37,079 nt of DNA from the NCBI RefSeq assembly GCF_039536245.1, contig NZ_BAAAYN010000024.1, forward strand, positions 94,417-131,495, given 5' to 3'. The notes beneath the pieces were generated by a model. The model was not told where the DNA came from and did not search any database. It saw nothing but the letters and a program-made list of their open reading frames with translations. Source of the stretch: Cryptosporangium minutisporangium (GTDB taxonomy: Bacteria > Actinomycetota > Actinomycetes > Mycobacteriales > Cryptosporangiaceae). The translations under genes were made by a program, and so were the position numbers. This document shows positions 9,561-37,057 of this stretch, piece by piece; positions within the stretch are counted from its first letter, which is position 1, and every line of letters starts with the position of its first letter.

Positions 9561-10699
9561 CGCGGCTTCCCTTACCCACCGTCAGCGACCCCGAGCTGCT
9601 GATCGATGATCCGGCCGCGCTCACGCCGGAGTGGCTGAGCCGGGCGCTCGGCCTCCCGGTGCGGGCGACGCGGCACGCGCCGATCGGCACCGGCCAGATC
9701 GGCGGAAGCTACCGGGTGGAGTTGGAGTACGCCGGGCCGGTCCCGTCGGAGGCGCCGACGAGTGTCGTCGCCAAGATCGCCGTCGGCACCGAGGCGCAAC
9801 GCGCGCAGGTCAGCCGCGCGTTCGTCTCGGAGGTGGGGTTCTATCTGCACCTCGCCGACCGGGTCAAGGCCCGCATCCCGCACTGCTGGTACGGCGCGAT
9901 CAGTACCGACCACACCCGCTTCACGCTGATCCTCGAGGACCTGACGCCCTCGGTGCCGGGCAACCAGGCCGCCGGGTGCACGCTGGAGCAGGCCCACGAC
10001 GCCGTGCAGAACCTCGCCGCGCTGCACGCGTCGTTCTGGAACGACGAGTTCCTCGTGAGCGGGCTGGAGTGGCTCACTCTTCCGACGACCGAACTCGCCC
10101 AACTCGCCGGGGTCGCCCTCCAGGGCGCCACCGAGACGTTCGTCGAGCGCTTCGGCGCGGACCTGGCGCACGAGGACGCCGCGACGCTCGCCGCCGCGGC
10201 GACGGTGGTGACCGAGTGGGTGCTCTCCCACCAGACGCCGTTCTCACTGGTCCACGGCGACTACCGGCTGGACAACCTGATGTTCCCGCGGTCCGGAACC
10301 GGCTCGGCGGCCCTGGACTGGCAAGGGCTCTCGATCGGCCATCCGGGGCGGGACCTCGCCTACTTCGTCGCGCTGTCGCTCCCGCCGGACCTCCGGCGGG
10401 AGCACGAGCACGAGTTGGTCGCCGCCTACCACTCCGCGCTGGTCGGCCACGGGGTGCGGGGCTTCTCCCCCGACGACTGCCTGGCCGGTTACCGGGTCGG
10501 AATGCTGCAGGGACCGCTGATCACCGTGCTCGGCTGCGTCTACTCCCCGGCGGAGCGGACCGCCGACGCCGACGCGATGTTCCTGTCGATGGCGTCGCGG
10601 TCGGCGCGCGCCATCCGGGACCTGGGCACCGTGGAGCTGATCAGCGCTCCGCGGCACGAGCCCGCTGCTGACCGACGAAGCGGGTCGCCGCCCGGTTGA
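9557..10699 (+). CDS. APH/EcKinase-like phosphotransferase
   Basis: A 380-residue small-molecule kinase of the aminoglycoside-phosphotransferase/ecdysteroid-kinase-like fold. The catalytic loop VHGDYRLDNLMF has H233-G-D and the downstream N, and ALDWQGLSIGHPGRDLAYF carries the Mg-binding DxD-type aspartate. An N-terminal lobe with VVAKIAVGTEAQRAQVSRAF supplies the nucleotide lysine. Coupling by ATGA to an acyl-CoA ligase and the P450 neighbourhood argue against antibiotic resistance and for phosphorylation of a catabolic alcohol or CoA-pathway intermediate; this is inference. Its last 59 bases overlap the 3' end of the convergent SDR gene. A second member of the same fold is at 30988. Confidence 0.82.
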   Translation: MTRLPLPTVSDPELLIDDPAALTPEWLSRALGLPVRATRHAPIGTGQIGGSYRVELEYAGPVPSEAPTSVVAKIAVGTEAQRAQVSRAFVSEVGFYLHLADRVKARIPHCWYGAISTDHTRFTLILEDLTPSVPGNQAAGCTLEQAHDAVQNLAALHASFWNDEFLVSGLEWLTLPTTELAQLAGVALQGATETFVERFGADLAHEDAATLAAAATVVTEWVLSHQTPFSLVHGDYRLDNLMFPRSGTGSAALDWQGLSIGHPGRDLAYFVALSLPPDLRREHEHELVAAYHSALVGHGVRGFSPDDCLAGYRVGMLQGPLITVLGCVYSPAERTADADAMFLSMASRSARAIRDLGTVELISAPRHEPAADRRSGSPPG

Positions 10700-12530: not shown

Positions 12531-13417
12531 GCGGTGCCCTCCGCGGGTTCGTCGGTACTGTCCGGAACATCCGGCGGAAGGCCCAGTGCACGGGCGAGGT
12601 TGGCGAGCGAGTAGCGGGCGAGCGGGACGTCGACCCCGAGCCGTTCGGCCATCCCGACCGCGAGGCCGAGGTCCTTCTCCCCGAGCGCCCGGACGTGCGC
12701 GAAGATCCCGTGCCAGGGGTCCTCCGGCGCGAGCTGCGCGGTCGAGTCGCGGTACATGATGGCGCCGGGGCCGCCGGTGATCGCGTCGGTGTGGCGTACG
12801 ACGTGGCCCAGCTCCACCAGGTCGATCCCGGCCGCCTCGGCCAGCCGCTGCGCTTCGGCGACGGCGGTGAACGAGACGAAGTGCAGCAGGTTCCGGGCCA
12901 CCTTCATCCTGGTCCCGGCCCCGATCGGCCCGGCGTGGATCACCCGGGTTCCCATCCTGGCCAGCACGTCCGCGGCCGCGGCGTACGCGTCGTCCGCGCC
13001 GCCGACCAGGATGGCCAGCGTGCCGTTCGCGGCGCCGATCGTGCTTCCGCTGACCGGCGCGTCGATCACCCGGACACCGGAGCGCGCGGACAGCTCCGCG
13101 AGCCGCGCCGGGGTCTCCGGTGCGACCGTCGAGTGGATCGCGACCACGAGCCCGGGAGAGGCCGCCCCGAGGATCTCCGCGAGCACGTCGCGTACCTGGT
13201 CGTCGTCGCGCACCATGACGCAGACGGTGCCGGCGCCGCCCACCGCTGCGGCCAGCTCCGCCACGCTCGTCGCCACCTTCGCCCCGGCCCGCACGAATTC
13301 GGCGAGTGGCTCCGGTGCGACGTCGTAGACGAACAGCCCATCGGGCCAGTCCAGCAGCCGCCGGGCCATCGGAGCGCCGATCGCCCCCAGCCCGACGAAC
13401 CCCACCGGACCCGTCAT
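12527..13417 (-). CDS. 3-Hydroxyisobutyrate dehydrogenase-type NAD(P)-dependent reductase
   Basis: A 296-residue beta-hydroxyacid dehydrogenase. The Rossmann motif GLGAIG (9-14), substrate-binding DAPVSGS (about 119-125) and catalytic lysine K172 in GAGTRMKVARN are present; the usual KxxNN is KVARN here, so one asparagine is replaced by arginine. The family oxidises beta-hydroxyacids or reduces semialdehydes. The start is ATG 13417, which overlaps the P450 stop as TGATG; the frame continues upstream without function. The gene sits between a P450 and the CMD-like gene in a tightly coupled operon, suggesting work on a short hydroxyacid fragment or a hydroxylated product. Substrate unknown. Confidence 0.88.
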   Translation of the reverse strand: MTGPVGFVGLGAIGAPMARRLLDWPDGLFVYDVAPEPLAEFVRAGAKVATSVAELAAAVGGAGTVCVMVRDDDQVRDVLAEILGAASPGLVVAIHSTVAPETPARLAELSARSGVRVIDAPVSGSTIGAANGTLAILVGGADDAYAAAADVLARMGTRVIHAGPIGAGTRMKVARNLLHFVSFTAVAEAQRLAEAAGIDLVELGHVVRHTDAITGGPGAIMYRDSTAQLAPEDPWHGIFAHVRALGEKDLGLAVGMAERLGVDVPLARYSLANLARALGLPPDVPDSTDEPAEGTA

Positions 13418-14646
13418 CAGCGCACTTCCGCCGTGACCGGGAGGTACGCGTAGCCGCGCACGTTGGCGGAGTAGAAGCGCAGGCACCGCTCGTGGTCCAC
13501 CTCGACGGTGCGGAACCTCCGGACGACTTCCCGCAGCACGATGTTCGCCTCCAGCCGCGCCAGGCTCGCCCCGAGGCAGTAGTGCCGCCCGCCCCCGAAG
13601 CTCAAGATCCGGGCGAGCTCGTCCTTGGACCGGGTGACGTCGAACGTGTCCGGCGCGGAGAAGACCGCGTCGTCCCGGCCGGCCGAACCGAGCGCGAGGA
13701 GCACCTGGGCGCCGGCCGGGGCCGTGACGTCGTGCAGCGTGACGTCCTCGACGAGATGCCGGGCCAGCAGCTGGGTGGAGGTGTCGAACCGCAGGGTCTC
13801 CTCGACCCACGCCGGGATCAGCGTCGGGTCGCCGAAGACCAGGTCGCGCTGCTCCGGGTGCGCGGTGAGCTGGTAGATCGCGTTGCCGAGCAGCTTCGTC
13901 GTCGTCTCGTTGCCGGCGACGACCATGAGGAACAGGAACGCGACGACCTCGTCGTCGGTCATCCGCTCGCCCCCGTCAGCACCTCCGTCCGTGCCCTCGC
14001 CATCCGCAGCGAGCAGTGCCGACGTCAGGTCGTCCGTCGGCCGCCGGTGTCGCTCGGCGACGTGGTTGCGGTAGTACTCCATCAGCCGGAGCCCGGCATC
14101 GAGGCCGGCGGAAGGCACGTCCCGCAGCCCGTCCTCGCGCTGGACCAGCAGGTCGGCGAGGCGACGCACCTCGACGCGATCGGGCTCGGGCACGCCGAGC
14201 ATCTCGGAGATGACGTCCATCGGCACCTTGCCCGCCAAGTCACCGATCCAGTCGAACGACGCCGTCGCGCCGGGTCCGGCGCCGGTCAGCAGCCGGTCGA
14301 GGTAGTGGTCGGTGATCCGCTGGATCCGTGGCTCCATTTCGGCGACCCGACGCGGCGTGAAGCCCCGGGAGACCAGTTTCCGCAGCCGGGACTGCTCGGG
14401 TGGGTCCATCGCCAGGAACGACATGACGACGTGCGCGTGCGGGCTCCAGGCGCTCTTGTCCATCGAGACGCCCATCGTGTTGCTGTACGCGCGATCCGCA
14501 CGCAGGGCGGCGCTGACGTCGGCGTGGCGCGTGAGCACCCAGAAGTCGTGCTCGGTGTTGTGGTGGAGCGGGCTCTCCCGCCGCAGCCGCCGGTAGACCG
14601 GGTACGGATCGTCCTGGAGCAGGTGGTCGTACGGGTCGAAGTTCAT
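13417..14646 (-). CDS. Cytochrome P450 (second of three)
   Basis: A 409-residue P450 with I-helix AGNETT, ExxR in EETLRF and haem loop FGGGRHYCLG (thiolate C357). The threonine pair follows an acid (NETT) rather than the NDTT of the first P450, so the two are from different families. Residues about 215-230 hold a glycine-rich acidic insert (DGEGTDGGADGGE) before the I-helix. ATG 14646 follows GGGGAG with six bases between; an in-frame extension to 14940 overlaps the upstream gene and is rejected. It leads the coupled operon P450-dehydrogenase-CMD-TetR. Confidence 0.92.
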   Translation of the reverse strand: MNFDPYDHLLQDDPYPVYRRLRRESPLHHNTEHDFWVLTRHADVSAALRADRAYSNTMGVSMDKSAWSPHAHVVMSFLAMDPPEQSRLRKLVSRGFTPRRVAEMEPRIQRITDHYLDRLLTGAGPGATASFDWIGDLAGKVPMDVISEMLGVPEPDRVEVRRLADLLVQREDGLRDVPSAGLDAGLRLMEYYRNHVAERHRRPTDDLTSALLAADGEGTDGGADGGERMTDDEVVAFLFLMVVAGNETTTKLLGNAIYQLTAHPEQRDLVFGDPTLIPAWVEETLRFDTSTQLLARHLVEDVTLHDVTAPAGAQVLLALGSAGRDDAVFSAPDTFDVTRSKDELARILSFGGGRHYCLGASLARLEANIVLREVVRRFRTVEVDHERCLRFYSANVRGYAYLPVTAEVR

Positions 14647-14680: not shown

Positions 14681-16153
14681 TCAAAGTAGAACACGTTCTT
14701 GCCCGAGGCGAGCCGCGTGGCGTCCGCAGCGCCTGCCGAAGAACGACGCCTCACCCAGCTGGGTGCCGGACGCGTACCCGCGCCCGTCCACCGCGATGTT
14801 CGACGCGCAGGCGCCCGCCGCGTAGACACCGGCGACGACCGACCCCTCGGCGCGCAGCAGCTGGCCGTCCGGATTGACCCGCAAGCCCCCGCAGCTGAAG
14901 CCGGAGTAGAAGCACGCACCGGGGGTGAGGTCGTAGGCACCCCACGGGCCCTGGTCGAGTGGGACGACGTACTGCTCGGCCTTGTGGAACTCCGGGTCGT
15001 CGCCGGTGGCGGCGGCCGTGTCGTACGCCCGCATCGTGGCCACCAGCGCCCCGGCGGGCATCCCCAGCGCCCGCTCCATCTCCTCGATCGTGTCCCACCC
15101 GTCGACGAGCGGCTGGAACTTGTAGCTCGGCTGCGTCATCGTCGCCGAGTCGAGGATCAGGTACGCGGCCTGGTCGGGCTGGTCGAAGACGAACGCCGCG
15201 ACCCGGGAGTGGTAGACGTCCTCGCTGACGAACCGCCGGCCGAGCTTGTTCACCACGATGCCCCGCAGGGTCTCCTCCGGCGGGTAGAACGGCGAGGTGA
15301 AGAAGGCCCCCTCCATGTGGTCGGCGATGCCGCCCACCGACTCGCCGAGCCGGATGCCCAGTCCGTCGTCGTAGGTGTTGCCCAGGGCCATTCCCCGGGT
15401 GAACAACGCGCCCAGCTGCGGCGCGTAGGCGTCGACCATCTCCGGGTTGAGGACGAACCCACCTGCGGCGAGTACGACGCTCCGGGCCCGGATGACGCCT
15501 TCGTCCGCGTAGCGGCGCCAGCGCGCGCCGACCACCGTGTCGTCCCGCACCACCAGCGCGCTCGCGCCGGTGTCATAGCGGACCTCCACGCCGAGTTCGG
15601 CCAGCCGGTTGAGCGCCCGTTCGACGACGAACGAGCCACCACCGATGTCGCCCACGACCGGCGGCTTGTGACCGCGCGGCGCCGGCCGGGCGATCTCCCG
15701 GAACGGCCAGCACTTCTCGTTGCCGGTGAACATCAGGCCCTGGGTTCCCGGCTGCACCACGGCCTTGTGCGGGTAGTACGAGCGCTCGAACTCGAACCCG
15801 AGCGACTCCAGCCAGCCGAAGTGCTCGACGCTGCCTTCGGCGTAGAGGCGGATCTTCTCCGGATCGCACTCCGGCGACATCTGGGCCAGGTACGCGGCCA
15901 TCTCGGCCGGAGTGTCCTCCCACCCGGTGGCCTGCTGGACCGGCGTGCCGCCACCGAGGTAGAAGTGCCCACCGGACATCGCGCTGGTGCAGGTCAGCCG
16001 TCCGCCGCGGTCGATGACCAGGACGCGGGCACCCGCCGTCGCCGCCTCGATCGCGGCGCTCACCCCGGCCATCCCGGCGCCGATCACCAGGACGTCGACG
16101 TCGTCGGACCAATCCGTCACCTCGTCCGCCGCGACCGCCGGAACCGGCTCCAC
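14681..16153 (-). CDS. FAD-binding dehydrogenase of the 3-ketosteroid dehydrogenase/fumarate reductase family
   Basis: A 490-residue flavoprotein. VLVIGAGMAG (glycines 25-30) binds FAD, GGHFYLGGG follows, and the C-terminal GYASGTQLGEASFFGRRCG is the family's FAD-closing motif. Relatives include 3-ketosteroid Delta1- and Delta4-dehydrogenases and soluble fumarate reductases; without alignment the reaction cannot be fixed, but C=C formation next to a ketone fits the neighbourhood. Three GTG codons are possible; GTG 16153 is preferred because AGGAG lies eight bases upstream, whereas 16159 and 16162 are too close to it. An operator-bearing promoter lies just upstream (16178-16214). The P450 operon starts 34 bases after its stop. 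Confidence 0.87.
   Translation of the reverse strand: MEPVPAVAADEVTDWSDDVDVLVIGAGMAGVSAAIEAATAGARVLVIDRGGRLTCTSAMSGGHFYLGGGTPVQQATGWEDTPAEMAAYLAQMSPECDPEKIRLYAEGSVEHFGWLESLGFEFERSYYPHKAVVQPGTQGLMFTGNEKCWPFREIARPAPRGHKPPVVGDIGGGSFVVERALNRLAELGVEVRYDTGASALVVRDDTVVGARWRRYADEGVIRARSVVLAAGGFVLNPEMVDAYAPQLGALFTRGMALGNTYDDGLGIRLGESVGGIADHMEGAFFTSPFYPPEETLRGIVVNKLGRRFVSEDVYHSRVAAFVFDQPDQAAYLILDSATMTQPSYKFQPLVDGWDTIEEMERALGMPAGALVATMRAYDTAAATGDDPEFHKAEQYVVPLDQGPWGAYDLTPGACFYSGFSCGGLRVNPDGQLLRAEGSVVAGVYAAGACASNIAVDGRGYASGTQLGEASFFGRRCGRHAARLGQERVLL
14688..14699. promoter_or_regulatory. AGAAC-AC-GTTCT palindrome ahead of the second P450 operon
   Basis: AGAACACGTTCT has 5-base arms around two bases and lies 42-53 bases upstream of the P450 start, inside the last codons of the FAD dehydrogenase gene. 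It shares half-sites with 11484 and 16178 and fits TnnAACnnGTTnnA except for the last position. No clear -35 was found here. Confidence 0.45.
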
Positions 16154-16177
16154 ACTCACCACTCCTCGACGCCGAGC

Positions 16178-16214
16178 AGAACAGAACTGAAACCTGTTCT
16201 CGTCAGAGTGTCAA
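16178..16214 (-). promoter_or_regulatory. FAD dehydrogenase promoter with AGAACAG/CTGTTCT operator
   Basis: The arms AGAACAG (16178-16184) and CTGTTCT (16194-16200) are perfectly complementary across nine bases. A perfect minus-strand -35 TTGACA lies at 16209-16214. The best -10 at 17-base spacing, TTCAGT (16186-16191), is poor and lies inside the operator. This is the arrangement expected for repression by the nearby TetR protein. Confidence 0.55.
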
Positions 16215-16260
16215 ACGCGGGTGAGCGCCCGCAAGCGTTGCGGCGAGGACCGGCGAGCGA

Positions 16261-17451
16261 TCAGAGGAGTCCGTGGCGCGGGGGCGGTGCGCCGGTCAGC
16301 GTCCAGCGGCCGATGTGCTGGACCTTCCACCGCTCCGGGTCGTGCAGGGTGTGGGTACGGGCATCCCGCCAGTACCGGGAGAGGTTGAGCCGGTCGGCGG
16401 CCGAGCGCGTACCGCCCAGGTCGAACAGCGCGGAGGACACCGCGATCGACGCCCTGGCGGCGGCGACCTTCGCGACGGCGGTGGCGACCGACGCCCCCGC
16501 GGTCGTGGCGTCGGTGCGATCGGACTCCGCGGCGTCGATAGCCACCGCGGCCTCCCGTACCAGGGCCTCCGCGCCGCGCACGGCGATCTCCAGCTCGCCG
16601 GCCTGCTGAACGAGCAACGGATCCTCGGCCGCGGTCTCGACTCCCGCCTCGAACCACGGCCGGGCCCGGCCGACCAGGTCGGTCGCGGCGGTGAGCGCGC
16701 CGCGGGCGATGCCGACGTCGAGCGCCGCGTGCAGCACCTGCGCGCGGGCGCCGTACGTGGTCGGGCCGGCGAAGATCGGCGTGTACGGCACGAGTTGCTC
16801 GGACGTCACGGGGACTTCGTCGAGGCGGACGGTGCCGCTCGCCGTGGTGCGCTGCCCCATGCCGTCCCAGTCGTCGGTCACGGTGACGCCGGGGGCGTCC
16901 CGAGGGACGTACGCCAGCACCTTCGGGCGCGGCTCCCCCGGCTGCTCGAGGACCGCACGCACGACCAGCCAGTGCGCGAAGAGCGCACCGGTGCTGTAGA
17001 ACTTCTCGCCGGTCAGCACGTACTCGCCGTCGGGGCGACGCCGCACGCTGGTCGTGTCGTCCACGACCGTGCGTCCGGACCGCTCGGACTGCGCGTTGGC
17101 GAACCGGGCGCCGTCCAGCGCGGCCGCGAACCAGCGGGCCTGCTGGTCCTCGGTGCCCTGCAGGCGCAGCGCCTCGAGGAACACGAAGTGGCTGTGCGGG
17201 ATCTGGGCGAGGCTGGCATCCGCCGTGGCGAGCAGCCGGAAGACCTCGGCCACGGTGGTGACCGGCACCTCCGCACCACCGAAGCGGGCAGGCACGGTGA
17301 TGCCGAGCAGCCCGGAGGCCGACAGCGCGTCCAGCTCGGCGTGCGGCAGCCGTCGGTCCCGATCCCGCTCGGCGGCCTCCTCGGCGTAGATCGCCGCGAG
17401 CTTGCGGGCGATCTCCTCTGCCTCCGCGCCGGAGCGAACGACGTGGGTCAT
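16261..17451 (-). CDS. SfnB/DszC-type flavin-dependent sulfur-acquisition oxidoreductase
   Basis: A 396-residue acyl-CoA-dehydrogenase-fold flavoprotein. The N-terminal GLLGITVPARFGGAEVP, central ANAQSERSGRT and LTGEKFYSTGALFA, and C-terminal FDLGGTRSAADRLNLSRYWR are the pattern of the SfnB/DszC monooxygenase group, which oxidise organosulfur compounds with reduced flavin rather than dehydrogenating CoA esters. The protein has no cysteine and only two methionines. ATG 17451 has no ribosome site; it overlaps the stop of a 16-codon leader ORF (ATGA), so it is probably translated by coupling. It diverges from a MetQNI-type importer, supporting a role in using organic sulfur taken up by that importer. 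No flavin reductase is in the window. Confidence 0.82.
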   Translation of the reverse strand: MTHVVRSGAEAEEIARKLAAIYAEEAAERDRDRRLPHAELDALSASGLLGITVPARFGGAEVPVTTVAEVFRLLATADASLAQIPHSHFVFLEALRLQGTEDQQARWFAAALDGARFANAQSERSGRTVVDDTTSVRRRPDGEYVLTGEKFYSTGALFAHWLVVRAVLEQPGEPRPKVLAYVPRDAPGVTVTDDWDGMGQRTTASGTVRLDEVPVTSEQLVPYTPIFAGPTTYGARAQVLHAALDVGIARGALTAATDLVGRARPWFEAGVETAAEDPLLVQQAGELEIAVRGAEALVREAAVAIDAAESDRTDATTAGASVATAVAKVAAARASIAVSSALFDLGGTRSAADRLNLSRYWRDARTHTLHDPERWKVQHIGRWTLTGAPPPRHGLL

Positions 17452-17498
17452 CGAGCGGGCACCGGTCGCTCGGCAGGGGTGGACGCGAAATCCGGCAT
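17448..17498 (-). CDS. 16-residue leader peptide translationally coupled to the SfnB-type gene
   Basis: ATG 17498 opens MPDFASTPAERPVPAR and the stop TGA overlaps the SfnB-type start as ATGA. A strong GAGGGGG ribosome site lies six bases upstream of the leader ATG, while the main gene has none. The peptide holds three prolines near its end (ERPVPAR) and no cysteine, so it is not a cysteine-run attenuator of the mycobacterial kind. Its role (coupling only, or ribosome-stalling control) is unknown. Confidence 0.6.
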   Translation of the reverse strand: MPDFASTPAERPVPAR

Positions 17499-17542
17499 GA
17501 AGTGCCCCCTCGGGAAATTGCCTACTTGATTGGTCGAGAAAG

Positions 17543-17570
17543 TCTGTATCTTCCGGCCGCGAGCCGTCAA
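17543..17570 (-). promoter_or_regulatory. Possible promoter of leader peptide and SfnB-type gene
   Basis: TTGACG (17565-17570, minus strand) with TACAGA (17543-17548) at 16-base spacing. The -10 matches poorly, so this is tentative. The surrounding 17512-17560 is AT-rich relative to the neighbouring DNA. Confidence 0.3.
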
Positions 17571-17599
17571 CCGCCCCCCGGTGTCATTCCAGAGCTTCT

Positions 17600-17614
17600 C
17601 TATCGGACTGATAG
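17600..17614. promoter_or_regulatory. Inverted repeat CTATC-N5-GATAG in the sulfur divergon
   Basis: CTATCGGACTGATAG has perfect 5-base arms and lies in the 210-base gap between the leader peptide start and the importer start, 95 bases upstream of the latter. It is a candidate operator for sulfur control. No regulator gene adjoins it, and I cannot assign it to a known consensus. Confidence 0.4.
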
Positions 17615-17708
17615 GCTTCGCGCCGCCGAACCGTCGTCTGGCCGCTGCCTCGCCGGTCCGCGCACACCCGTGCGCGTGCCCGGCGCCACCCCACCGGAGG
17701 TACTTGTC

Positions 17709-18683
17709 GTGACCGAGCCAACCCCGCCCAACGGATCGTCCGAGGAGCTGCCGGACGAGCCTCGGCTGCCGTCGCGCGGCACCGGCCGGCGCCGCGTCGT
17801 GTGGATCGCGGCCGCCGCGGTCGTGCTCGTCGCCGCCCTGGTGATCGGCCTGGTCGTGTCGCTCGGCGACGACCCGGAGGAAGCGTCCGCGACGACGGTC
17901 CGCATCGGCGTCGTCGACGCGTCCCAGCCGTACTGGAAGACCTACGCCGAGCTGGCGAAGGAAGAGCTCGACGTCACCGTGAAGTACGTCAACTTCAACG
18001 ACTACAGCCAGCCCAACCCGGCGCTGAAGGAGAAGCAGCTCGACCTCAACCAGTTCCAGCACATCCAGTACCTGGCGAACTACAACGTCACCGCGAACGA
18101 CGACCTGCAGCCGATCGGCGCGACCGCGGTGTATCCGCTGCCGCTCTACTCGCTGAAGTTCACCGACCCGTCCGCACTGCCGAAGAACGCGAAGATCGCG
18201 ATCCCGAACGACGCGATCAACGAGGCCCGCGGCCTGCTCGTGCTCCAGGCGGCCGGGCTGCTCACGCTGAAGGACGGCGGCGGCGCGTTCTCCACCGTCG
18301 AGGACATCGCGACCAAGAAGGTCGACGTCACCACGCTCGACGCCTCGCAGACGGCCGGTGCCCTGCAGAACGGCTCGGTGGTCGCCGCGATCGTGAACAA
18401 CAACTACGCGACGAACGCCGGGCTGAAGCCGGCGCAGGCCATCTTCAAGGACGACCCGGGCAGCCCCAGCGCCGCGCCGTACGTCAACATCTTCACTGCC
18501 CGGAGGGCCGACGCGACGAACGAGACGTACCTGAAGCTCGCCGAGCTGTACCACGATCCGGCCGTCGAGAAGGGCGTGCAGGAGGCGAACAGCGGCACGG
18601 CCGTGTTCCGCACCACCTCCGCCGAGCAGCTCCAGAAGGACCTGGCGACCGTGGAGCAGCAAGCCCGCGACGCGAAGAAGTAG
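17709..18683 (+). CDS. metQ: MetQ/NlpA-family substrate-binding protein with a transmembrane anchor
   Basis: A 324-residue extracytoplasmic binding protein of the MetQ family: TTVRIGVVDASQPYWKTY opens the domain, followed by VKYVNFNDYSQPNPALKEKQ, LDLNQFQHIQYLANYN and the IAIPNDAINEARGL strand. Family members bind D/L-methionine or related sulfur compounds. Instead of a lipobox, residues 1-29 are cytoplasmic and proline/charge rich, and about 30-52 form a hydrophobic helix, so it is membrane-anchored by a helix rather than by lipid. The only sulfur residue in the whole protein is the initiator methionine. GTG 17709 has GGAGG eight bases upstream. It is followed by metN and metI. Confidence 0.88.
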   Translation: MTEPTPPNGSSEELPDEPRLPSRGTGRRRVVWIAAAAVVLVAALVIGLVVSLGDDPEEASATTVRIGVVDASQPYWKTYAELAKEELDVTVKYVNFNDYSQPNPALKEKQLDLNQFQHIQYLANYNVTANDDLQPIGATAVYPLPLYSLKFTDPSALPKNAKIAIPNDAINEARGLLVLQAAGLLTLKDGGGAFSTVEDIATKKVDVTTLDASQTAGALQNGSVVAAIVNNNYATNAGLKPAQAIFKDDPGSPSAAPYVNIFTARRADATNETYLKLAELYHDPAVEKGVQEANSGTAVFRTTSAEQLQKDLATVEQQARDAKK

Positions 18684-18700
18684 CCCTCCTCCGAGCGAGT

Positions 18701-18726
18701 CCGGCCCGGCGGGATCGCCGGGCCGG
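18701..18726 (+). terminator. GC-rich hairpin between metQ and metN (processing or attenuation)
   Basis: CCGGCCCGGCG (18701-18711) and CGCCGGGCCGG (18716-18726) form 11 perfect G-C pairs around the loop GGAT in the 62-base gap between metQ and metN. There is no U tract. Such stems often stabilise the binding-protein message or lower expression of the distal genes, matching the need for excess binding protein. Confidence 0.6.
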
Positions 18727-18745
18727 CGTCGAGTAAGGACGATTC

Positions 18746-19801
18746 ATGCCCGCCGAGGAGCCCGTCCCGGTGCACGTGCGGTTCGAGCACGTCGGCAAGA
18801 CCTTCCCCGGGCGAGGCCGCCGGGCCGCGCCGCAGGTGGCACTCCACGACGTCGACCTGGAGATCCGCCGCGGCGAGGTGTTCGGCGTCATCGGCCACTC
18901 CGGGGCCGGCAAGAGCACGCTGGTGCGGCTGATCAACGGTCTGGAGACCCCGACCACCGGCCGCGTCCACGTCGGTGAGCACGAGCTGACCGCCCTCACC
19001 GAGCGCGGCCGGCGCGCGGTGCGGCGGGACATCGGGATGATCTTCCAGCAGTTCAACCTCTTCCGGTCCCGGACGGTGGCGGGCAACGTCGCGTACCCGC
19101 TGAAGGTCGCCGGGGTACGGCAGCCCGAGCGCGACCGCCGGGTGGCGCGGCTGCTGGACTTCGTCGGGCTGCTCGACCGCGCCCACGACCACCCGGAACA
19201 ACTCTCCGGCGGGCAGAAACAGCGAGTCGGCATCGCCCGGGCACTCGCCACCGAACCGTCGCTGCTGCTGGCGGACGAGGCGACCAGCGCGCTCGACCCG
19301 GAGACCACCGGCGAGGTGCTGACGCTGCTGCGCCGGATCAACCGCGACCTCGGCGTGACGATCGTGATCATCACCCACGAACTCGACGTCATCCGCTCGG
19401 TCGCCGACCGGGTCGCGGTGCTCGACGCGGGCCGCGTCGTCGAGACCGGCAGCGCCTACGACGTCTTCGCCCGCGCACAGACCGAGGCCGCCGCGCAGTT
19501 CGTCCGCACCGCGCTGCGCGACCGGCCCTCCCCGGAGACGCTGGCCCGGCTGCGCGCCCGGCACCCCGGGCGGCTGATCACCGTCCGGATCCGCGACGAG
19601 GAAGGGCTCCAGACCCGGCTGGCCCGCACGTTCCTCGATCACCAGGTCGCCGCGGACATCGTGTTCGGCGGCATCAGCGAACTGCAGGAGCGGCCGGTGG
19701 GCAGCTTGACGTTCGAGCTCACCGGCCCGGACGGCGCCGTGGACGCCGCGCTCACGACGCTGCGCGCGGACGGCGTCGACCTCGTCGAGGAGAAGGCCTG
19801 A
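18746..19801 (+). CDS. metN: MetN-family ABC transporter ATP-binding protein
   Basis: A 351-residue ATPase of the methionine-uptake family. Walker A GHSGAGKST (50-58), the Q-loop in FQQFNLF, signature LSGGQKQR and Walker B LLLADEATSALD are intact, as is the H-loop in IITHELDV. The C-terminal 90 residues, including VAADIVFGGISELQERPVG, form the regulatory NIL/ACT-like domain that senses substrate in MetN. The protein has no cysteine and two methionines. ATG 18746 follows AAGGAC. Its stop overlaps the metI start (TGATG). Confidence 0.93.
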   Translation: MPAEEPVPVHVRFEHVGKTFPGRGRRAAPQVALHDVDLEIRRGEVFGVIGHSGAGKSTLVRLINGLETPTTGRVHVGEHELTALTERGRRAVRRDIGMIFQQFNLFRSRTVAGNVAYPLKVAGVRQPERDRRVARLLDFVGLLDRAHDHPEQLSGGQKQRVGIARALATEPSLLLADEATSALDPETTGEVLTLLRRINRDLGVTIVIITHELDVIRSVADRVAVLDAGRVVETGSAYDVFARAQTEAAAQFVRTALRDRPSPETLARLRARHPGRLITVRIRDEEGLQTRLARTFLDHQVAADIVFGGISELQERPVGSLTFELTGPDGAVDAALTTLRADGVDLVEEKA

Positions 19802-20460
19802 TGGACGAGTTCCTCTCGAACCTGCCGGTGTACCGCGAGGCCATCTGGCAGACGTTCTACATCGTCGGCATCTCGCTGGCGGCAGGCGGAGTGCTCGGCC
19901 TCGTCCTGGGCCTGGTGCTCTACGCGACGCGCCCGGGCAATCTGCTCGGCAACCGGGCGGTGTTCCTCACCGTCAACGTGGCGGTCAACGTGGTGCGGCC
20001 GGTGCCGTTCGTCATCTTCATCACCGCGATCCAGCCGCTGATGCTGCACACGATCGGCACCACGATCGGCACCAACGCGGTCACGTTCGCGCTCTCGCTC
20101 TCGGCGGCGTTCGCGATCAGCCGGATCGTCGAGCAGAACCTCCTCACGGTCGACCCGGGTGTGGTGGAGGCCGCCCGCGCGGCCGGAGCCCGGCCGATCG
20201 GGATCCTCGTGACGGTGCTGATCCCGGAGGCGCTGGGGCCGCTGATCCTGGGCTACACGTTCATCTTCGTCGCGGCCGTCGACATGTCCGCGCAGGCCGG
20301 GCTGTTCGGCGGCGGTGGTCTCGGTGACTTCGCGATCACCTACGGCTCGCAGCGCTACAACTGGCCGGTCGTTTACATCACCGTCGCGACGATCGTCGTG
20401 ATCGTCCAGGCCGGCCAGTTCCTCGGCAACTGGCTCGCCCGCCGCGCCCTCCGCCGCTGA
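19801..20460 (+). CDS. metI: MetI-family ABC transporter permease
   Basis: A 219-residue inner-membrane permease with about five membrane segments, the normal MetI size and topology. The EAA loop that contacts MetN is visible as VVEAARAAGARPIGILVTVL. It begins MDEFLSNLPVYREAIWQTFY. There is no cysteine and there are three methionines. The start overlaps the metN stop by one base. It completes the MetQNI-type importer opposite the SfnB-type gene; the substrate may be methionine or another organosulfur compound. Confidence 0.93.
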   Translation: MDEFLSNLPVYREAIWQTFYIVGISLAAGGVLGLVLGLVLYATRPGNLLGNRAVFLTVNVAVNVVRPVPFVIFITAIQPLMLHTIGTTIGTNAVTFALSLSAAFAISRIVEQNLLTVDPGVVEAARAAGARPIGILVTVLIPEALGPLILGYTFIFVAAVDMSAQAGLFGGGGLGDFAITYGSQRYNWPVVYITVATIVVIVQAGQFLGNWLARRALRR

Positions 20461-20538
20461 GGATCGCCGCACGAATACTGCCCCTGCCGCGCCGCCGCTG
20501 ATCGGAGGAAGCTCGGACGTATCGGAAGGGAGGCAGAC

Positions 20539-21495
20539 ATGTCCGAGACCCACGCGGTGACGGTCGGTGTGGACGGTTCGGCACCCGCGATCGCCGCGCT
20601 CGACTGGGCCGCGCAGTACGCACAGGCCCACTACGTCCCGCTGCAGGTGCTGACCGCGGTCGGCTGGCCGGGAGAGCGGCCCGGGTACGGCGGGTCCCAG
20701 CTCGCCGAGCTGAAGGAGGCTGCCCGGATCGACGGCCGGCGGACGCTGGACCGGGCGCTGAAGCGGGTTCGTGCGGTATTACCCCAGCTGGCCGTCTCCG
20801 GATACGTCAGCGACGAGCCCCCGGCCCGGGCACTGCTCTCGGCCTCCGAGTCCAGCGGTCTGATCGTGGTCGGCTGCCGGGGCCTCAACCCGACGGCGAG
20901 CGTGATCCTCGGGTCGGTCTCCGCCGCTCTCACCGGGCACGCGAAGTGCCCGGTGGTCGTCGTCCGGTCGGACCCGCGCATCGGCCCGACCGTGCCGCCG
21001 GCACCGGTGGTCGTGGGAATCGACGGCTCGGAGGCGGACGAAGCCACCCTGGGGGCCGCGTTCGCCGAGGCCGACCGGCGCGGCGCCCCGCTGATCGTGG
21101 CGCACGCGTGGAGCGACGCCTCGCTGGTCGGCGTCTTCGGGGCCGGTGCGGTACCGAGCTGGATCGAAGCCCGTCAGCACGCCGAGGCCCTGCTGCAGCG
21201 GCAGCTCGCCGCGTGGCGTCCGAAGTATCCGGACGTCCGGGTCGGCACGGTCGTGGAGCGGGAGCAGCCGGCGCGGATGCTGCTGGAGCTGGGGCGAGCC
21301 GCCGGTCTGGTCGTCGTGGGGTCGCACGGGCGCGGCGGGTTCGCGGGCATGCGGCTCGGCTCGGTCGCGCGGCGGCTGCTGCACCACGCCGACGCCCCGG
21401 TGCTCGTCGTCCGCCGAGGAGCCCGAGCCACCGCGCACTCCGACGCGTCGCAGCACGCAGTGCCCAGCGTGCCCGCACAGCGCCGCGGCGGCTAG
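20539..21495 (+). CDS. Tandem-domain universal stress protein
   Basis: A 318-residue protein with two UspA domains. The first (about 1-145) starts VTVGVDGSAPAIAALDWAA and ends with VVGCRGLNPTASVILGSVS. The second (about 155-300) starts VVVGIDGSEADEATLGAAF and ends with VVGSHGRGGFAGMRLGSVA. Both keep the ATP-binding G-x2-G-x9-G(S/T) pattern. Such double-domain proteins are typical of actinobacterial hypoxia and dormancy responses. ATG 20539 is preceded by GGAAGGGAGG. Its stop TAG directly abuts the stop of the convergent gene within GCTAGCTAGC. The 78 bases between metI and this gene show nothing else recognisable. Confidence 0.92.
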   Translation: MSETHAVTVGVDGSAPAIAALDWAAQYAQAHYVPLQVLTAVGWPGERPGYGGSQLAELKEAARIDGRRTLDRALKRVRAVLPQLAVSGYVSDEPPARALLSASESSGLIVVGCRGLNPTASVILGSVSAALTGHAKCPVVVVRSDPRIGPTVPPAPVVVGIDGSEADEATLGAAFAEADRRGAPLIVAHAWSDASLVGVFGAGAVPSWIEARQHAEALLQRQLAAWRPKYPDVRVGTVVEREQPARMLLELGRAAGLVVVGSHGRGGFAGMRLGSVARRLLHHADAPVLVVRRGARATAHSDASQHAVPSVPAQRRGG

Positions 21496-21933
21496 CTAGC
21501 GCTCGATGACCTCGCCGGCCGGGCGGCGAGGCGTGTCCGGGGCCGAGTCGTCGGTCGCCGGGACACCGATGCGCAGCGCGGCCTGCGCCTCGCCGAGGTT
21601 GTCCAGGAGCCGGTGCAGCAGGGCACGCGACGCCGGCACCTCGACCACGTCGGTCATCGGCGAGACGGCCAACCCGGCCGCGGTGGTCTCCAGCAGCGCG
21701 GAGCTCATCGCCTCGCCGGCGGCCAGCCAGTCGGTCGGCTCGTCGTCGCGGGTCCAGAGCACCAGGTAGCGGGCTCCGCCGTCGTGGCCGGGGCCCGGCA
21801 GCAGGCCCTCGCCGCCCTCCGGGAAGAACGACCGCAGCGGAATCTTGCGCGGGGTGCCCGACACGGCCGTCTCCACCGGTACGCCTGAGCGGTGCTCATC
21901 GTGCCGGTCCCCTCGGCTCGGTGCTCGGTACAC
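21496..21933 (-). pseudogene. C-terminal remnant of an Acg-family nitroreductase
   Basis: A 145-codon frame from GTG 21933. From about residue 30 it matches the C-terminal part of Acg-like FMN-binding nitroreductases as I know them: IPLRSFFPEGGEGL, then ARYLVLWTRDDEPTDWLAAG, EAMSSALLETTAAGLAVSPM and a TPRRPAGEVIER end. Full Acg proteins are about 330 residues, so the first 190 or so are missing. The N-terminal 25 residues look unrelated. In mycobacteria, Acg and Usp genes belong to the DosR dormancy regulon and are often neighbours, as here. It may be a decaying gene or a short functional protein; the DosR-like box at 21967 would favour continued expression. Confidence 0.55.
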
Positions 21934-22000: not shown

Positions 22001-22708
22001 TCACTCGCCGAGGACCCCGCGGTGCCGGAGGAGCCGGACCGCGCTCTTGCCCGCGCGGCGGAAGGTGTCGACGAGTTGCCGCTCGGCACCCTCGCCGTCG
22101 CCGGCCTCGATGGCGGTGACGACGCCGTGCATCGCGGTCTGATGAGCCTGCAGGGTCTCGGGAACCTCGACGAAGAAGTTGCCGGGGATGATCGTGCCGG
22201 TCAACAGTCCCCCGACCGCGGTGAGCCGGTGGGAGTGCGCCGCACCGAGCAGCCGGGTGAGTAGTCGGCGGTTCGCCGCCCAGAACTCGTCGGCGTCGGT
22301 GACCGATCCCAGCACGCCGTCGAGCGCGCGGAGCTCGGCGAGGTCCTCGGGCGTGCCGCGCTCGGCGGACCGGCGCGCGGCCAGGCCGTAGACCAGCCCG
22401 ATGATCTCGTAGTGGTCGTGGACGGTGTTCTCGTCCAGCCCGGCGACGTAGGCGCCGCGGTGGGCCTCGGCCCGCAGCCACCCTTCCCGGTCCAGCGCGA
22501 TGATGGCTTCCCGCACCGGAAGGCGGCTCACGCCGAGCCGGTCGGCGAGTTCCTCCTGCCGGACGCGATCGCCGGCCCGCAGCTTGCCCTCGAAGATCAG
22601 GCGCCGGATGGCGGCGGCGACCCGCTGGGCGCCGGTCTGGCGCACCGTGCCGGGGAAGTGCCCGCTGTCCCATCCGCTGACGTACTCGTTGTCCGGCGTC
22701 TTGCGCAC
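22001..22708 (-). CDS. GntR-family regulator, FCD subfamily
   Basis: A 235-residue GntR protein. The winged helix-turn-helix covers about 25-90 (AAAIRRLIFEGKLRAGDRVR, EELADRLGVSRLPVREAI, LDREGWLRAEAHRGAYVAGL). A helical FCD effector domain follows. FCD regulators usually repress catabolic operons and are released by an acid intermediate. GTG 22708 has AGGGAAG five bases upstream and overlaps the DUF35 gene stop by one base. It is the fourth gene of the CoA transferase-thiolase-DUF35 operon; the palindrome TTGGATCCAA at 25550 in that operon's promoter is its best candidate site. Confidence 0.9.
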   Translation of the reverse strand: MRKTPDNEYVSGWDSGHFPGTVRQTGAQRVAAAIRRLIFEGKLRAGDRVRQEELADRLGVSRLPVREAIIALDREGWLRAEAHRGAYVAGLDENTVHDHYEIIGLVYGLAARRSAERGTPEDLAELRALDGVLGSVTDADEFWAANRRLLTRLLGAAHSHRLTAVGGLLTGTIIPGNFFVEVPETLQAHQTAMHGVVTAIEAGDGEGAERQLVDTFRRAGKSAVRLLRHRGVLGE

Positions 22709-35770: not shown

Positions 35771-37057
35771 ATGGCACCGACACGCACGATGGCACCCAGC
35801 GGAAGATGGCGCCGAGCCGGAGGGCGCGCGCTGTGCGCCGCCGTCACCGTGGCGGCCGTACTGGCCGGCTGCACCTCGACCTCCACCGACGGTCGCCGCG
35901 ACACCGACAAGGCGGTCGTCGGCGACGACTCGGCCGGCCTGAGCGACACCGAGATCCACGTCGGTGTGGTGGTGGGCAACAAGCAGTTCGCCGACGCGGC
36001 CGTCGGTATCCAGGCCCGGTTCCAGCAGGCCAACGACGCCGGCGGGGTCCACGGCCGGAAGATCGTCGTCGACAAGGTCGCCGACGACGGCGGGACCGCC
36101 GCCTCCGCGGTCACCGCGGTACGGTCGCTGGTCCAGCAGGACGGGGTCTTCGCGCTGGTGACGACGTCGAGCTTCCTCGCGAACACCAAGCCGTTCATCG
36201 AACAGCAGGGGGTGCCGACGTTCGGATTCGGATTCGACGACGCCTGGTGCAACAGCGACTACACGTTCGCCTACAACGGCTGCCCCGCGGGCACCACGGC
36301 GCACACCTCGAACATCGCCCACTTCGTCGGCCAGCTCTTCCCGGACAAGACCGTCAAGGGCCACACGATCGCGGTCGTCGGCGACGACGGCGCGTCGTCG
36401 ATGCGGACCGCACGCCTCTACGCGAGCGTCATCAAGGCCCAGGGCGGCAACCTCGTCCTGACGCAGAACACGATGCCGGGAGCGACGTCTGCGCCGGTCT
36501 CGGACTACACCCCGTACGCCACCGAGGTGATGCGCAGCGCCGGCGGCAAAGCGCCCGAGTACGTCATGACGATCACAACGGCGCAGAACACGCTCGGTAT
36601 GACCAAGGCGCTGCTCGGCGCCGGCTACCGCGGCATCCGCCAGGACTTCACGATGTACGACCCGCGCCTGGTCCGGGCGGCGGCCGGTGGCAACGAGCTG
36701 ATGTCGATGCAGCCGTGGGAGGTCGACACGCCCCGGATGAAGGAGTCGATCGCGGCGATCCGGGCCGTGAAGGCGGATCAGCGGCTGACGCTTCCGCTCG
36801 GGTACGGCTACTGGTCGGCCGACATGTTCGTGAAGATGCTGGAGAAGGCCGGTAAGGACCTGTCCCGCAGTTCACTGGTGACGATGCTCAACGACGACTT
36901 CAGCATGGTCGACGGTGAAGGGGTCGGGAAGCTGGAGTTCCCGCGGATGCACGGCGAGTCGGCCGGCTGCCTCGCCTGGGTCAGCAGCGACGGGAAGAAG
37001 TACACGGTGCGGGCGAAGCTGTCCTGCGTCGAGCTGATCGACAACCCCGTGGCCTGA
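35771..37057 (+). CDS. LivK-type substrate-binding lipoprotein
   Basis: A 428-residue type I periplasmic-binding-fold protein with a lipoprotein signal: basic GRWRRAGGRAL, a hydrophobic core and the lipobox LAGC with C34. The mature part begins with IHVGVVVGNKQFADAAVGIQ and contains IVVDKVADDGGTAASAVTAV and GHTIAVVGDDGASSMRTARL. ATG 35771 is preferred because AGGGAG lies four bases upstream; an in-frame GTG at 35738 that overlaps the fused transporter stop would put 11 extra residues before the signal peptide. It delivers the ligand to the LivG/LivHMF importer. Sequence after the stop is too short to judge for a terminator. Confidence 0.9.
   Translation: MAPTRTMAPSGRWRRAGGRALCAAVTVAAVLAGCTSTSTDGRRDTDKAVVGDDSAGLSDTEIHVGVVVGNKQFADAAVGIQARFQQANDAGGVHGRKIVVDKVADDGGTAASAVTAVRSLVQQDGVFALVTTSSFLANTKPFIEQQGVPTFGFGFDDAWCNSDYTFAYNGCPAGTTAHTSNIAHFVGQLFPDKTVKGHTIAVVGDDGASSMRTARLYASVIKAQGGNLVLTQNTMPGATSAPVSDYTPYATEVMRSAGGKAPEYVMTITTAQNTLGMTKALLGAGYRGIRQDFTMYDPRLVRAAAGGNELMSMQPWEVDTPRMKESIAAIRAVKADQRLTLPLGYGYWSADMFVKMLEKAGKDLSRSSLVTMLNDDFSMVDGEGVGKLEFPRMHGESAGCLAWVSSDGKKYTVRAKLSCVELIDNPVA

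Follow-up and report, generated by a model that had tools for sequence, protein, structure and literature searches.

The subject of this analysis is a divergent gene group, sfnB and metQNI, in the 37,079-bp stretch of Cryptosporangium minutisporangium DNA given above (the window, hereafter). The window, G000:C24:94417-131495, comes from a 9.23 Mb draft genome of 152 contigs with 71% GC, and the relatives matched by its genes were all actinobacterial. Where genomes and loci have to be told apart, G000 is the genome of origin, G394, G395, G396, and G397 are its congeners, and L-numbers designate individual loci. The following features were delimited, with ABC standing for ATP-binding cassette:

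16261-17451, minus strand: relative of the SfnB-family flavin-dependent oxygenases (396 aa, no cysteine, two methionines; TIGR04022)
17452-17708, no strand assigned: divergent promoter region common to SfnB and MetQ (257 bp, from sequence)
17599-17615, no strand assigned: putative operator TCTATC-GGACT-GATAGG, an inverted repeat of the pattern YCTAYC-N5-GRTAGR upstream of both genes, at 93 bp from MetQ and 147 bp from SfnB
17709-18683, plus strand: MetQ/NlpA-type substrate-binding protein (324 aa, GTG start, no cysteine, one methionine; PF03180)
18746-19801, plus strand: MetN-type ABC ATPase with a NIL domain (351 aa, no cysteine, two methionines; PF00005 and PF09383)
19801-20460, plus strand: MetI-type permease (219 aa, no cysteine, three methionines; PF00528)

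SfnB was matched by the SfnB model TIGR04022 at 494.1 bits over residues 3-395, which exceeds the curated cut-off of 430.9. MetQ, which has no second copy in the genome at E values up to 0.01, scored 203 bits against PF03180 (cut-off 27), the NIL domain of MetN scored 46.3 bits against PF09383 (cut-off 24), and MetI scored 133.6 bits with NF008049, under the cut-off of 212. No Rfam family matched positions 15500-21500 at E values up to 1, and a riboswitch in the divergon was rejected on that ground. Firm gene names used below are those obtained by profile scans; many neighbours were named by eye or after a congener's scanned copy. Genes outside the window, including their starts, were called with our own gene caller, and some MetQ lengths are therefore short.

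The initial annotation of this DNA had described four proteins of 396, 324, 351, and 219 residues without cysteine and with only eight methionines, four of them initiators; coordinates, lengths, and counts were all confirmed. The methionines occupy positions 1 and 198 of SfnB, 1 and 98 of MetN, and 1, 81, and 162 of MetI, and MetQ indeed contains no sulfur residue beyond its first methionine. The background sample was made up of 40 20-kb stretches of this genome and, together with the window, comprised 837 kb of 9.23 Mb (9%) and 741 called genes. The other 737 genes of the sample had 0.75% cysteine and 1.28% non-initiator methionine, and the four proteins have 4 sulfur residues in 1286, versus 26.1 expected (binomial probability 9e-8, the true value being larger, as proteins are over-dispersed). 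The ranking of the cluster that had been proposed was carried out on this 9% sample: at 0.31%, the combined cysteine and methionine (Cys+Met) density of the four-gene run lies under that of all 614 background four-gene runs, the lowest of which had 0.67%. When proteins were ranked singly against background proteins of at least 150 aa (n = 604), three were at or below the level of SfnB, and the same number was obtained for MetQ and for MetN. Thus, the sulfur poverty is extreme in these three proteins. MetI is ordinary, since 67 of the 604 background proteins match or undercut it, and adds nothing.

The neighbouring proteins had been said not to share this composition. This applies to most of those counted, such as the products of 13417-14646 (P450-like by eye, two cysteines and ten methionines) and 35849-37057 (lipoprotein-like, five cysteines and 14 methionines), but not to a GntR-type regulator of 235 aa encoded at 22001-22708, which has no cysteine and one methionine and is nearly as sulfur-poor as the four proteins. 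The regulator bears a distant likeness to regulators of phosphonate use.

Is the poverty tied to the pairing of SfnB with MetQNI? The best 80 of 99 MetQ relatives, 40 of the 80 being from Curtobacterium, were inspected with their surroundings (about 6 kb on each side at 67 loci, less at 13 loci shortened by contig ends), and no SfnB was found at any of the 80. Nonetheless, 70 of the 80 orthologues are free of internal cysteine and methionine, so the initial proposal that the composition marks this divergon as a dedicated system is not supported by the orthologue comparison. Conversely, no MetQ of the window type was found at 20 SfnB loci drawn from 71 genomes with an SfnB match; at two of them, NlpA-type proteins with only distant similarity (39 and 100 bits) are encoded. 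In congeners G395 and G396 both orthologues are present on separate contigs and are still sulfur-poor; G394 has only distant relatives of SfnB and MetQ. SfnB-MetQNI as a conserved unit was rejected on these counts. Since the linkage is absent at the other loci and split in the congeners, the divergon is a local meeting of two sulfur-poor units.

Pooled over 21 loci (19 of the 80, with G395 and G396), the Cys+Met content was 0.12% for MetQ, 0.77% for MetN, 1.44% for MetI, and 1.89% for the neighbours. E. coli MetQ has no methionine after its first residue and a single cysteine, that of the lipobox, while the sulfur residues number 11 in E. coli MetN and nine in E. coli MetI; the distant MetQ, MetN, and MetI of G394 have one, five, and five. 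Because E. coli MetQ is poor, and MetN and MetI of both E. coli and G394 are richer, the poverty of MetQ looks old, and that of MetN looks like a trait of the clade. SfnB, at 0.51% pooled over the 20 loci, is the minimum of its neighbourhood and one of the three poorest genes at 15 loci; the two upstream genes have 0.94 and 1.04%, the downstream gene 1.57%, and those at a distance of four to five genes 1.6-2.0%. On these comparisons, sulfur poverty is inherited family by family.

The likely cargo of MetQNI can be read from its binding protein. In Neisseria MetQ, according to PMC6739813, R156, N213, and N238 bind the amino and carboxyl groups of methionine, and Y81, F98, H100, and Y103 surround the thioether. 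The window MetQ has kept all seven residues (Y99, F116, H118, Y121, R174, N230, and N260), as have 75 of the 80 orthologues. This conservation makes methionine, or a derivative sharing its head group, the likely cargo. An organosulfur compound instead of methionine, as first proposed for this MetQ, was rejected with seven of seven methionine contacts present.

That proposal belongs to a wider alternative, in which the MetQNI-type system imports a non-methionine organosulfur compound, SfnB desulfurizes it, and the four genes form one dedicated pathway. In its favour, the window has a divergent SfnB/MetQ pair with one operator, and in G396 the gene opposite SfnB, on the far side of the operator, encodes a binding protein resembling a family-5 (PF00496) protein scanned at L307. 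A further point for it is an SfnB locus in another genome of the same order (L167:1839-8160), where SfnB occurs with an NtaA/DmoA-type oxygenase (490.8 bits, cut-off 279.7) and MetN/MetI-like genes, the ATPase displaying no NIL domain. The 304-aa NlpA-type protein of L167 has neither cysteine nor methionine, and five of its seven contacts are replaced: phenylalanine and histidine are kept, and S, W, Q, Y, and S stand at Y69, Y91, R144, N202, and N229 (E. coli numbering). A MetQ-like importer for another organosulfur compound may thus exist at L167, but not in the window, where both the seven contacts and the NIL domain are retained. Moreover, an NlpA-type protein about 4.4 kb from SfnB at L169 retains six contacts and has phenylalanine in place of tyrosine at the remaining one, and MetQ of the window type did not lie beside SfnB at any of the 80 other loci or in the two congeners that have both. 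We regard this alternative as unlikely, although it fares best among those considered.

The solved structures nearest to SfnB are TdsC, DszC, and methanesulfinate monooxygenase. SfnG occurs near SfnB elsewhere (for example, at L152, 631.7 bits), but none scored over the cut-off in the genome of origin or in three congeners (0 of 4), and an SfnG partner in the genome of origin was rejected. We infer that SfnB oxidizes a sulfinate or a similar small compound to a sulfonate, which would then be cleaved by the operator-linked relative of alkanesulfonate monooxygenase described below.

Other genes of this kind were observed in the same genome. On contig C31 (L194:3376-10415), a DszC-like gene (413 aa, no cysteine, one methionine) adjoins an ABC importer and a methylthioribose kinase gene; similar arrangements occur in three congeners (L199, L200, and L201), one of them with a 12/12 operator copy (L200:11688). 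A sulfur-poor island at about 44-56 kb of contig C22 (L263:4254-16378) encodes two oxygenases of the NtaA/DmoA type (443 and 466 aa) without internal cysteine or methionine, a 564-aa protein of the flavin adenine dinucleotide (FAD) oxygenase type (no cysteine, one methionine), a flavin-reductase-type protein, a peptide/nickel-type ABC importer, and a LysR protein; no operator copy of at least 11 positions was found in the island. Apart from these genes, two tandem 301-aa genes were noted at L265:8640-9545 and 9765-10670, which are identical in their first 50 residues and in Cys/Met counts. A stretch containing an unread base comes after them, and they perhaps reflect either an assembly fault or a true duplication.

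The composition could also be a by-product of fold, location, or base composition (an exported MetQ avoiding cysteine, high GC, proteins rich in alanine and valine) and have nothing to do with starvation. Some other proteins of the sample do have zero or one sulfur residue, two of 21 lipoprotein-like proteins contain none beyond the lipobox, and the ordinary MetI and the poor GntR-type neighbour also fit such an explanation. Controls of the same class from the same genome were normal. Thirty of the genome's 36 acyl-CoA-dehydrogenase-type (PF08028) proteins were examined, SfnB and a DszC-like paralogue included; their pooled Cys+Met content was 2.76%, and the lowest two were SfnB (0.25%) and the paralogue, encoded on C31 (0.24%). 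Seventeen other ABC ATPases of the sample had 2.04%, versus 0.29% for MetN, and the 21 lipoprotein-like proteins had 1.71% without the lipobox cysteine, versus 0 for MetQ. In an alignment, all five cysteines of E. coli MetN are replaced or fall in a gap in the window MetN, and the site of M201, which is methionine in eight of 14 aligned MetN proteins, is leucine in the window protein and in five relatives. MetY, located behind the same operator pattern, also lacks both residues internally. Protein class therefore does not explain the poverty, and a by-product is, in our estimate, slightly less probable even than the single dedicated pathway. The four proteins had been expected to fall outside the range of their families; against the 9% sample, SfnB, MetN, and MetQ lay far below both the proteome and their own class, and MetI did not.

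An inverted repeat, CCTAYC-N5-GRTAGG, was seen in the promoters of MetQ orthologues of Actinoplanes and of the window. After upstream regions under 60 bp were left out, 77 MetQ and 11 SfnB regions were scored. Eleven of the 12 positions were reached by five of the 77 MetQ regions, versus 1.0% of 1287 background regions, and by two of the 11 SfnB regions, one being the window site itself. In Actinoplanes, 12/12 sites lie 5 bp (L041) and 46 bp (L045) upstream of MetQ. The genome of origin contains eight sites of the pattern YCTAYC-N5-GRTAGR, versus 0.9 expected from a first-order Markov model derived from the sample; the reversed pattern had no match, versus 3.4 predicted. Six of the eight sites are clear of called genes. 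Sites precede the following genes:

17599-17615: SfnB/MetQ
site before MetY (455 aa, no internal cysteine or methionine; 824.5 bits, cut-off 703), which MetX adjoins
site before the alkanesulfonate-monooxygenase relative (454.7 bits, below the cut-off of 510)
site before a TauC-like permease and a TauA-like binding protein (213.3 and 209.8 bits, each short of its cut-off)
site before a cysteine-dioxygenase (CDO)-type gene (domain PF05995)
site before a carbonic-anhydrase-type gene
site before a sugar-type ABC binding protein (by eye)

The pattern was found at two sites in G394, ten in G395, six in G396, and none in G397 (reversed control: 0, 2, 0, and 3). With congener copies named by likeness to the scanned copy, the CDO-type gene has a site in all four genus genomes (the genome of origin and three congeners), the alkanesulfonate-monooxygenase relative in three, and MetY in two. 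In G396, the unlinked SfnB has a site 20 bp upstream, and another site precedes an importer resembling the one next to the L194 methylthioribose kinase gene. A thioesterase-type gene (identified by scan in L303) was also observed behind operator copies in three congeners (L300:4443, L303:4661, and L305:4657). The composition of genes starting within 200 bp behind a site was compared with the window divergon excluded, along with genes under 100 aa, two in-gene sites, and one site without a gene start. Genes behind 22 sites in the four genus genomes (n = 29) had a median Cys+Met content of 1.02%, versus 1.95% (p = 1.1e-4), MetY being the clearest sulfur-poor case. Because the pattern precedes sulfur genes, and the genes behind it are sulfur-poor even without the window, these data support a sulfur regulon. 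A surface search of the open-access literature found no mention of the 17-bp site or of the regulon. That two unrelated sulfur-poor units are neighbours by chance, the palindrome separating them being fortuitous and the units not jointly regulated, would agree with the unconserved SfnB-MetQ linkage and with the T instead of C at the first position of the window site, but is very improbable given that pattern sites occur at about nine times expectation, cluster before sulfur genes, and also precede the unlinked SfnB of G396 and the unlinked MetQ of Actinoplanes.

The explanation we favour, with a probability of roughly 0.72, is that a single sulfur-regulated operator serves two divergent sulfur-acquisition units, and that their proteins are sulfur-poor through use under starvation. 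We infer a regulator which, when sulfur is short, would act at the 17-bp inverted repeat 17599-17615 and allow transcription both ways. In one direction, metQNI would supply an importer with high affinity for methionine or a close derivative of it, in which a membrane segment at the N-terminus of MetQ, rather than a lipid, would anchor the protein. In the other, sfnB would supply a DszC/MsuC-like oxygenase that takes a sulfinate or a similar small organosulfur compound by oxidation towards sulfite, with reduced flavin coming from a reductase encoded elsewhere. Through selection, each family would have lost cysteine and methionine over a long time under starvation use, so that the proteins could be made when these amino acids are scarce. 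The initial description of the divergon as a dedicated sulfur-starvation system is supported in its link to sulfur limitation (the TIGR04022 match, the poor SfnB neighbourhoods, and the operator before sulfur genes), but not in the sense of one dedicated module (0/80 MetQ loci, 0/20 SfnB loci, and the split in the congeners).

Several observations weigh against this explanation. Besides the ordinary MetI, the window MetN and MetQ fall short of the curated models (284.4 bits with TIGR02314, cut-off 499.7, and 142.3 bits with TIGR00363, the MetQ/NlpA model, cut-off 228.85), so that, judged by its family matches, the MetNIQ-type system would work like a methionine importer without being a curated member. 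The N-terminus of MetQ has one hydrophobic segment and no lipobox cysteine, there being no cysteine in the protein. An ABC ATPase with no evident sulfur role (L150:15359-16282), whose cluster we take to be metal-importer-like, also contains no internal cysteine or methionine. The operator is not general for either gene, since even 10 of 12 positions were reached by only nine of the 77 MetQ and three of the 11 SfnB regions (background 3.3%), and SfnB of G395 has no good copy (best site 8/12). One of the eight genomic sites is inside a gene, that of MetY overlaps the last bases of the upstream gene, and two precede the carbonic-anhydrase-type and sugar-type genes. The composition test is weak in the genome of origin alone (eight genes, p = 0.04), and in its full form it counts genus orthologues separately, which are not independent. 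The strictest form, CCTATC-N5-GATAGG, the only one used in a survey of 60 genomes of the class, occurred in one, the genome of origin, and was absent from the other 59, which makes it lineage-limited. The LysR protein beside Actinoplanes metQ was rejected as the regulator, with at most 36% identity and no clear orthologue.

A broader proposal, which we consider about as probable as its negation, is that this actinobacterial lineage contains a hitherto undescribed regulon for sulfur limitation, recognizable by the 17-bp inverted repeat CCTAYC-N5-GRTAGG, and that its members (SfnB, MetQNI, MetY, sulfonate and taurine systems, and the CDO-type gene) are shuffled between species and tend to keep both the operator and the loss of cysteine and methionine. 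If this is true, sulfur-scavenging genes could be found from sequence alone by sulfur poverty together with the repeat, and the oxygenase island of C22 is indicated by poverty without the repeat. The case also predicts further genes that should respond when sulfur is limiting. The old idea that starvation proteins avoid the element they fetch is thereby extended to an actinobacterium, with controls from its own genome and an operator that can be tested, and two importers alike by annotation are set apart, the window MetQ with its methionine pocket and the L167 relative with the pocket mostly gone.

Compared with known systems, the window SfnB belongs with the SfnB/DszC/TdsC/MsuC group by its TIGR04022 match and its nearest structures; unlike SfnB loci that have SfnG nearby, it comes from a genome which, like three congeners, has no SfnG over the cut-off. 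MetQNI resembles the MetNIQ importer in its NlpA-type binding protein with seven methionine contacts, its NIL ATPase, and its MetI-type permease, and differs in having a hydrophobic segment and no lipobox cysteine in MetQ, and in MetN and MetQ scores under the NCBIfam cut-offs. N295 of E. coli MetN, the position of an inhibition mutant, is aspartate in the window MetN. In sulfur-starvation regulons of the Cbl/CysB, CymR, and SsuR type, one regulator site stands before sulfonate, taurine, methionine, and MetY-type genes. The putative site described here is likewise common to such genes, and differs in being a 17-bp CCTAYC-N5-GRTAGG repeat. Sulfur-assimilation proteins of E. coli and yeast are depleted in sulfur (Baudouin-Cornu et al. 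2001), and a cyanobacterial case was described by Mazel and Marliere 1989 (both as cited in PMC5513900). As in the former case, sulfur-fetching proteins are poor in cysteine and methionine; the difference is that here an actinobacterial oxygenase and importer are concerned, with poverty of SfnB and MetQ in many genomes and a tie to a putative operator. The divergon is thus a new case of the established sulfur depletion in sulfur-assimilation proteins.

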